Shown here one piece after another: positions 15,501-18,035 of a stretch of DNA of 64,000 nt. The translations under genes were made by a program, and so were the position numbers. The notes below the pieces were generated by a model that was given only the letters and a program-made list of their open reading frames with translations, was not told the origin of the DNA and searched no databases. Each line of letters opens with the position of its first letter. Positions within the stretch are counted from its first letter, which is position 1. This DNA comes from Synechococcus elongatus PCC 11801 (GTDB lineage Bacteria > Cyanobacteriota > Cyanobacteriia > Synechococcales > Synechococcaceae), in assembly GCF_003846445.2 (NCBI RefSeq), contig NZ_CP030139.2, positions 2,211,223 through 2,275,222 on the forward strand, given 5' to 3'.

Positions 15501-17564
15501 TTATCTTGAGTTTTCTGGCTTTCTTTGATTACGCTCTTTATGTCCAATACAGTTGTAGCTACAATAGCCACAATCATTCTTGGGACAAATTAATTTACCA
15601 CAATAATGACAATTAACATCTTTGCCAATTATTAGGGGCGAGTAACCACACTTACCTTTACCTTGAATCGTTCCACCACAAAAAGCAAGAATTGTAGTTG
15701 GATGATAATCTTTTTCTGAAAATTTTCCAGTCAAAAGACCTTTTCCATCAAATTTAAAGATTTTAAATCCAGTCAATTTTAATCTGTTCTTATTATTCCA
15801 AACGGTACTTAAGGTTTGACAAAATTCACTAACAATATTTAATGGGTAATAAATTTTTAAAGGATTAATATCATTACCAGAGACAGCTTTATTTAAGTTT
15901 AGAAAATACAGCAATTGATTTGGATGATAACTGTTATTATTGGTTGATAACATAATCAAGAAATGCCTAAGTATAGCTATAAAGATATGGGGTAATTTTA
16001 AACTTTCTTTATTTGATCGATATAGTAGCTGAATAAAAGTCTGCTTCCAGGATGGAACATTATCCTGCCAAGATGCAGGAATGGAACGGTTTGCATAAAT
16101 AAAGATAGGGATGTAGTAATCAATCTGGTTTTTATTCAAAATTAATAAATCATCATAGGATGGAATCTCATCTTCATGCAGATCAAGAAATTGAGTGGCA
16201 ATATTGATTTGCTCTTGATAAAATGTGGAACAGTAGTCGAATAACCAAGGGGGTAGATAAGTTTTCGGGTCAGTTCTTGTCATATCTAGCCTAATAATAT
16301 CATTTCTGAAATCTTGATTGAGGCTTTGCAATTGAGAGTTACTTAATTCTCCCAAATATTGAGGATCTTGTATCTTAAATGGAGCACCATCACTATTCAT
16401 AAATTCTAATTTAAGATAAGGAGACAGAACTGCAGCAATAACTACATCCTTACCTCGATTTTTTTTGAATTCAGGGATACAAAATTCTGAATAGATATCT
16501 GAATTTATTGTCTGACGAGAGTTTTTGATATCAATTAATTTTGATAGATTATTTTGGCTAATACAAATATCAGCTTTTTTCCATTCTATGCTCTTATTAT
16601 TTATCTGATGAATAGCTAAGTCTTCTACATTGGATCCTAAATTTCGATAAAAATATTGAACAAGTTTTTCTGCTCCTCTTGCTGAGAGCATTTTTGCCTT
16701 CTCAAAATCAATCCTTGTTCTATTCCCCCATAGGTCTGCTAGTTCTTTGTCATTAGAATCAAAATCGTAGAGATTTCTATAATTGTTACTAATATATTGA
16801 CTATAAGGATAGCTAGAGCTTTTAAATCTTTCTACTAGTTCAAAAAAGTCAGAGTATCTTTTTGTGATCAATTGCTGTTTGTACTCTAGAGGTGAAACAT
16901 CCCAAAAGGATCCACGATACTGTAAGTTATTTTTTAGATAAGCAACCTTATACCAAATATTAGATCTCTCTTCATCCGAGCAGTGATCTAGAAAGGTAGT
17001 TAAGTCATTAATCAAGGTTTTAGATAGCTTTAAGTTTTCCGAATTATCTAGAATCTTTTGGACTACATTCATGTATTGATTAAAGTTATAATCTCTCAAG
17101 CAGCTATGTAACTTACAGCTCTCTAGAAAAGCACTTGGATGATATTCAAGTGCTCTATCGAGCAAAGTTTTAGCTTGACCTGCTTCTAGAATCTTGATCT
17201 TATCTAAGATAAACTTAATAGCATCTTGTGTATTTACATAAATTAAGTAGAGTTTGAGAAGCTGAGAGATGACGTCAAAGTCATGAGAAGAGCAAATCGT
17301 ATCACTTATCTCTGACCACAACTTGCCTTTTGTATCTTCATCAACAGCCAATAGATTACTTTCAATAAATTGAATATATTGTCTAAAACTTATCTCTTTG
17401 AATCGAGCACGAAGCTCATCAGATATGAGAAATAAGTATTGACAGCCTTCATAAATTAATGAAAGTAAATCAATGGCGTCTTGGGTATCTAGATGTTTAA
17501 TCTTAGCAAGGATATACTGAACTGCCTCACTGTCATCAACTATCGATAGGTAATGACACATCAA
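15501..17564 (-). CDS. Large fragment of a PD-(D/E)XK-type nuclease protein with a cysteine-rich tail
   Basis: 687 codons from a TTG at 17564 (ATG at 17561), the first possible start after the in-frame TAA at 17898-17900. Two helical repeats share a 101-residue offset (about 14-75 and 115-176; FRQY and FNQY align). A nuclease-like core follows: E299 in GAEKLVQYFYRNLG, D332 in KKADICI and D345-x-K347 in KLIDIKNS, the order and spacing of PD-(D/E)XK enzymes. The tail has eight cysteines (629, 639, 652, 655, 660, 665, 668, 672) in CHYC- and CGYC-type pairs, probably binding zinc. The gene is very AT-rich and has no HIP1 site, unlike its neighbours. Function is inferred; whether the fragment is translated is unknown. 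Confidence 0.65.
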   Translation of the reverse strand: MMCHYLSIVDDSEAVQYILAKIKHLDTQDAIDLLSLIYEGCQYLFLISDELRARFKEISFRQYIQFIESNLLAVDEDTKGKLWSEISDTICSSHDFDVISQLLKLYLIYVNTQDAIKFILDKIKILEAGQAKTLLDRALEYHPSAFLESCKLHSCLRDYNFNQYMNVVQKILDNSENLKLSKTLINDLTTFLDHCSDEERSNIWYKVAYLKNNLQYRGSFWDVSPLEYKQQLITKRYSDFFELVERFKSSSYPYSQYISNNYRNLYDFDSNDKELADLWGNRTRIDFEKAKMLSARGAEKLVQYFYRNLGSNVEDLAIHQINNKSIEWKKADICISQNNLSKLIDIKNSRQTINSDIYSEFCIPEFKKNRGKDVVIAAVLSPYLKLEFMNSDGAPFKIQDPQYLGELSNSQLQSLNQDFRNDIIRLDMTRTDPKTYLPPWLFDYCSTFYQEQINIATQFLDLHEDEIPSYDDLLILNKNQIDYYIPIFIYANRSIPASWQDNVPSWKQTFIQLLYRSNKESLKLPHIFIAILRHFLIMLSTNNNSYHPNQLLYFLNLNKAVSGNDINPLKIYYPLNIVSEFCQTLSTVWNNKNRLKLTGFKIFKFDGKGLLTGKFSEKDYHPTTILAFCGGTIQGKGKCGYSPLIIGKDVNCHYCGKLICPKNDCGYCSYNCIGHKERNQRKPENSR

Positions 17565-18035
17565 ATTTATTGAAACTTGATAGTCGCAAATATCACAGAA
17601 AAACCTAACAGTACCTTTTGGAACTTGACCAACATCAACTAATTTTAAATCTGCAGCATGATTATTTTTGATATAAAATTCAACGATCTTTCCTTTGAGA
17701 GACGGATCGATTGTATTAATTTCAAAAGTGATATTGTCATTTGAAATGAGCTTTCTTAGGGCTGTAACAAAACCCAGCTTTGTAGTTAGTCTAATATTAG
17801 ATGCTTTTCTTTTTGGAGTTTTTCCCTCTTGAAGATCATGAATATCAAACTCAACTAAGTATCCCTTCCCATTTTTTTTATCCGTTTCAAGGAAATTTTA
17901 TAATTCGAGAGGGATGTCTTTTCTAAAGAACTTTACATCTTTTTCTTGACTATCAACAGTAATATAGCCAAAGTCATTAATTCTGCCAGTTTTATTGTTT
18001 TTTCCCCCGAACCACAAAATTTTTCCGGTGACCAT
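17565..18035 (-). pseudogene. N-terminal part of the same gene: cold-shock-type domain broken by TAA
   Basis: An ATG at 18035 opens a frame that runs in phase into the 687-codon fragment, broken only by TAA at 17898-17900 (codon 46). Before the stop, GKILWF, INDFGYITV and DVKFFRKDI match the first strands and the RNP1/RNP2 regions of cold-shock domains. After it, GYLVEFDI and KRKASNIRL match the last strands. The stop thus cuts the domain in the middle. A C-x2-C pair (CDIC) precedes the downstream TTG. No ATG, GTG or TTG occurs in frame between the stop and 17564. The simplest reading is a nonsense mutation in an 844-residue gene; a sequencing error or readthrough are alternatives. Confidence 0.7.

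Follow-up and report, generated by a model that had tools for sequence, protein, structure and literature searches.

The gene considered here lies in a window of 64,000 nucleotides, the whole stretch of Synechococcus elongatus PCC 11801 DNA that was analysed, and it raises the question of what an AT-rich frame broken by one stop codon once encoded and whether its product might have belonged to the defences of the cell against viruses. Phage defence is less explored in cyanobacteria than in enteric bacteria. Translation of the minus-strand frame 18035-15501 gives 845 codons, which include the terminal stop and one internal TAA, in agreement with the preliminary description, which had reported a single TAA at 17898-17900 in an otherwise open frame of this length. 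Two observations argue that the coding is not by chance: a GC content of 31.9% and a match to a plasmid gene of Synechocystis sp. B12 (L004) that runs across the stop, with residues 1-837 aligned at 48% identity (the plasmid copy being itself frameshifted). Judging from the relatives, the whole frame, on both sides of the TAA, was one gene.

A gene start at 17564 (TTG, then ATG) was considered and ruled out, as two relatives (L008 and L004) start upstream; a product beginning that late would have no cold-shock domain, and no close relative backs such a start. Intact full-length homologues, for which the preliminary description had called, do exist—e.g., the Synechocystis salina copy is uninterrupted, 848 residues long, 58% identical in the core, and has an equivalent upstream methionine. 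Since intact relatives share this upstream start, the upstream domain can be taken as part of the gene. Apart from this one codon the frame is clean, and the stop would therefore reflect either a recent loss or a wrong base call, both of which are kept as alternatives. Unless the sequence is in error, the interrupted gene should give no full protein, its product ending after 45 residues. The earlier statement that the gene is disrupted in this strain is to be qualified, as an intact paralogue is present in the same genome (651 residues, 34.9% GC, with a different N-terminus and 42% identity in the core). This paralogue (L002:1351-3306) adjoins a small HNH-type gene. A scan for promoters and terminators returned nothing informative. 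The parts of the gene are collected in Table 1.

Table 1. Parts of the interrupted gene, from the N-terminus of its product, in window coordinates.
Feature	Residues	Coordinates	Strand	Basis
Interrupted gene		15501..18035	(-)	Translation; homology across the stop; GC 31.9%
Cold-shock-type OB fold, N-terminal	1-83	17787..18035	(-)	Pfam CSD, PDB profile, L008 model
In-frame TAA within the cold-shock-type domain	codon 46	17898..17900	(-)	Sense codons here in relatives
Probable second small beta barrel	~84-135	17630..17786	(-)	Three predicted strands (88-123) in L008, tentative
Alpha-helical tandem repeats, two copies of a ~101-aa unit	~136-384	16884..17629	(-)	Self-alignment; L008 model
PD-(D/E)XK-type core	~438-544	16404..16725	(-)	E456 in helix, D489, D502-I-K504; invariance, model, fold matches
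C-terminal, mainly helical domain	~545-780	15696..16403	(-)	Model; no Pfam match, no known family
Zinc tail, eight invariant cysteines	786-829 (cysteines)	15504..15695	(-)	Invariant in 21/21

At the N-terminus, the preliminary description had placed a cold-shock domain split by the stop, and this is borne out by the Pfam CSD match of the window protein (PF00313; E 0.008, with a score under the curated cut-off), which covers residues 20-82 and thereby spans residue 46. The match is firmer among the relatives, with six of 11 members recovered by the Pfam model at E-values reaching 1.4e-6. L009 and L032 gave 4e-5 and 4e-4, and the family profile retrieves solved cold-shock and Y-box proteins from the PDB (best E 6e-5). 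In the AlphaFold2 model of relative L008 (mean pLDDT 77), a five-strand barrel is followed by a low-confidence second barrel (pLDDT only about 39-56) and then by helices, so that both the profile match and the five-stranded OB barrel that are the marks of a cold-shock domain are present in the family. The resemblance to CspA and YB-1 is one of profile; in contrast to these, the present domain has an extended WFGG region and an insert before the second strand, and it forms part of a large nuclease-type protein. Most relatives carry this part; the exceptions, in which no sign of it is seen, are the paralogue and the Variovorax, Microvirga, and Anaerolineales copies. The helices that come next contain a tandem duplication, in which residues 147-228 align with 248-329 at a score of 97 versus 31 +/- 4 in shuffles, and the repeat region is all-helical in the L008 model, with pLDDT mostly 80-94. 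The copy number differs among relatives, with two in the window protein and four in a nuclease relative of 1156 residues (L031:6903-10373), whose four unit signatures are near-identical and therefore suggest a repeat expansion of recent date.

The residues proposed earlier as those of the nuclease, E456, D489, D502, and K504, are found at these positions, as are eight cysteines near the C-terminus (786, 796, 809, 812, 817, 822, 825, and 829). The four residues and all eight cysteines are identical in 21 of the 21 aligned members, and the E/D and (D/E)-x-K pattern of PD-(D/E)XK enzymes is hence conserved throughout. In the predicted structure of the C-terminal part of the window protein (mean pLDDT 81, pTM 0.85), an alpha-beta-beta-beta-...-beta arrangement presents the helix, the strands, and the D-x-K in the order seen in such enzymes, whose core is alpha-beta-beta-beta-alpha-beta. 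When the full-length model was used as the query, helical solenoids dominated the fold matches. The leading PDB matches of the C-terminal part are uniformly PD-(D/E)XK enzymes, namely I-Ssp6803I, HincII, and Hjc resolvases, with none statistically significant (best E 0.067, none <0.001). These enzymes share with the present protein the E in a helix, the D and D-x-K on neighbouring strands, and the predicted topology, but not the cold-shock domain, the repeats, or the zinc tail. A sequence search of the nuclease part alone against solved structures gave no match. A PD-(D/E)XK-like core is thus supported by the invariant motif residues, the predicted topology, and the identity of the top fold matches, and the intact protein is predicted from its invariant residues and fold to act as a nuclease; the preliminary assignment stands as regards the E/D/D-x-K residues and the topology, while the fold matches remain weak.

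The protein body is without a model in Pfam, NCBIfam, PADLOC, and PHROGs, where only the cold-shock part and marginal matches were recovered; none of the PADLOC models fits the protein, and the zinc tail gave only weak treble-clef or zinc-finger matches against Pfam. The Pfam matches to SnoaL_4, PLATZ, and PAS were discarded as chance, and an identity with the NCBIfam retron Se72 effector (0.014, 0.091) was rejected, as these matches reflect the cold-shock part only. No description of this protein family was found in the papers searched.

A contig scan with the single window protein gave no match, and one with an alignment of the core gave 14 loci. Beyond Synechocystis, the family has members in Snowella, Nostoc, Tolypothrix, Calothrix, Pseudomonas, Azohydromonas, Sphingomonas, Campylobacterota, and one Anaerolineales genome, together with plasmid-borne ones in Variovorax and Microvirga; it extends, that is, over Cyanobacteria, Pseudomonadota, Campylobacterota, and Chloroflexota. 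Its distribution is rare and patchy: members occur in 8 of the 386 sampled cyanobacterial genomes and in 1/369, 1/337, and 2/249 genomes of three other groups, where the sole strong match is the genome on which the search was centred.

The suggestion that the gene is possibly antiviral gains from relatives that have genes of Hma, DISARM-type, Druantia, or Ssp systems around or next to them and is tempered by the fact that most relatives are solitary, amid ordinary genes, with no adjoining defence system. At three loci, the gene sits between the helicase and methylase genes of an Hma or DISARM-type operon. In G279 (L032), an intact copy is flanked by HmaA and HmaB, with about 20 bases left before hmaB (matches to HmaA 6e-199, HmaB 2e-149, and HmaC 2e-135); on the Synechocystis plasmid (L004), the gene starts 15 bases after a broken hmaA in the order hmaA, nuclease, hmaB; and in the Anaerolineales contig (L019), DrmD and DrmMI flank the gene, which overlaps the end of drmD. 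Elsewhere, the Pseudomonas massiliensis copy (L014) adjoins DruE1 of Druantia and two PADLOC candidates, PDC-M15A/B, the Microvirga copy (L006) is near SspH, and others are near toxin-antitoxin or integrase genes or amid ordinary genes. On the Synechocystis B12 plasmid (L004:8533-22755), the hma genes are frameshifted too, like the nuclease gene, through decay or assembly error.

Such junctions, short or overlapping, and the helicase, nuclease, methylase order that recurs at two Hma loci and one DISARM-type locus might be seen as the signature of an accessory subunit that cuts DNA on the order of these helicase-methylase systems, with the solitary copies as remnants. The Hma-subunit idea was tested on 20 further cyanobacterial Hma loci. 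In the set viewed for this gap (L032, L076-L092), hmaA and hmaB stand next to each other at 16 cyanobacterial loci, with cargo between the two in 12 and none in four. The cargo ranges over toxin-antitoxin pairs and genes that by eye are NYN-like, OLD-like, and GxxExxY-like, with the present family represented only once. The hmaA-hmaB gap is, then, a general cargo slot; its varied occupancy favours an independent module rather than an Hma subunit, and, as many unrelated genes occupy it, a place in it gives no more than a loose hint of function. Further, the full set of HmaA, HmaB, and HmaC that defines the Hma system (PMC8565338) accompanies the gene at just two loci, L032 and, with broken genes, L004, and the window genome has no HmaB. 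Likewise, none of the class 1 DISARM genes (DrmD, DrmMI, DrmA, and DrmB) is beside the window gene, and DrmD with DrmMI flank a relative in L019 only. The gene is not a defining component of either system, its window copy being without such an operon, and with most relatives solitary, a subordinate role of this kind is unlikely.

The base composition speaks to how the gene came to these places. The GC content of the window gene stands against a mean of 55.6% and a minimum of 43.5% in 221 stretches of the same length elsewhere in the window. In 20 of 20 loci checked, operon-borne copies included, the gene is lower in GC than its flanks—e.g., 36.8% against 60.6% and 55.5% in the DISARM-type operon (L019) and 31.3% against 43.7-47.1% in the Hma operon. 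As it lies below the flanking operon genes, this composition suggests that the gene joined the Hma and DISARM-type operons separately. The window copy was described earlier as a standalone gene, and its immediate neighbours are indeed only a glycosidase gene on one side and a transporter gene on the other. In a congener (G001), the gene is absent at the same site, where 475 bp of unrelated AT-rich sequence connect the flanks, and that genome has no family member anywhere; the site is variable within the genus. The congener's different stretch (L041:2015-2489) possibly encodes a small membrane protein.

These features could be expected of a selfish or homing-type nuclease gene, an AT-rich cassette spreading itself, for which defence operons would be merely permissive cargo sites: its GC is under that of the flanks at every locus checked, an integrase is near the L018 and L021 copies, the distribution is patchy, and the homing endonuclease I-Ssp6803I heads the fold matches. 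However, no intron or intein was found to house the gene, the protein far exceeds homing enzymes in size and includes a cold-shock domain as well as repeats, neither end repeats nor a target-site signature could be established, and a search of viral contigs and phage records for relatives recovered none; this reading is accordingly rather unlikely. A horizontally acquired enzyme of nucleic-acid maintenance outside defence (RNA turnover, recombination, or repair) might also be considered, given that RNA binding is common for cold-shock domains, that Hjc resolvases are among the fold matches, and that many loci are solitary, but a gene that is rare, accessory, absent from the congener, and repeatedly beside defence and toxin-antitoxin genes makes this decidedly unlikely. 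The window gene is probably a broken copy of a defence nuclease that is rare, is encoded by one gene, and moves horizontally, and the family, of putative antiviral activity, can best be described as PD-(D/E)XK-type defence nucleases into which a cold-shock domain is built.

Parallels might be struck with known conflict systems. In TALON/TOTE-type systems, a PD-(D/E)XK nuclease occurs together with helical-repeat (TPR) modules and cold-shock modules (PMC12458937), but there the modules are separate genes accompanied by a TATA-binding protein and a YprA helicase, whereas the present protein is one chain; the window gene has no TATA-binding protein gene or YprA helicase among its neighbours, all of them ordinary genes such as those for a glycosidase and a transporter. 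The type IV restriction systems known as CoCoNuT, a predicted RNA-targeting defence that features PD-(D/E)XK domains and zinc ribbons along with cold-shock OB folds (PMC11090510), are by contrast built on an McrB GTPase and McrC, and neither an McrB-type GTPase nor McrC is near the window gene.

In an intact copy of the defence nuclease proposed here, the N-terminal cold-shock OB fold would bind single-stranded nucleic acid exposed by an invader, the helical repeats of variable number might serve as a scaffold or recognition arm, the PD-(D/E)XK core would cut nucleic acid using a metal ion, and the zinc tail could add structural support or nucleic-acid binding. The gene would move as an AT-rich cassette, mostly alone and sometimes into a helicase-methylase cargo slot, as at the three loci above. 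A possible, if tentative, extension is that of an immune system in one protein, wherein the OB fold would sense the single-stranded nucleic acid of an invader and trigger the fused nuclease, the number of repeats would be tuned by an arms race, and the cassette, self-contained, would lodge repeatedly in unrelated defence operons, in the gap that separates their helicase and methylase genes. If it does encode a self-contained nuclease with its own sensor, this family would add a single-gene immune system, and the cargo slots in Hma and DISARM operons would become places to seek more systems. At two further loci (L035:7774-8508 and L036:11679-12572), related proteins (36% identical), without a Pfam match, are encoded directly upstream of the nuclease gene and have in common an R-x4-H motif resembling that of HEPN RNases.
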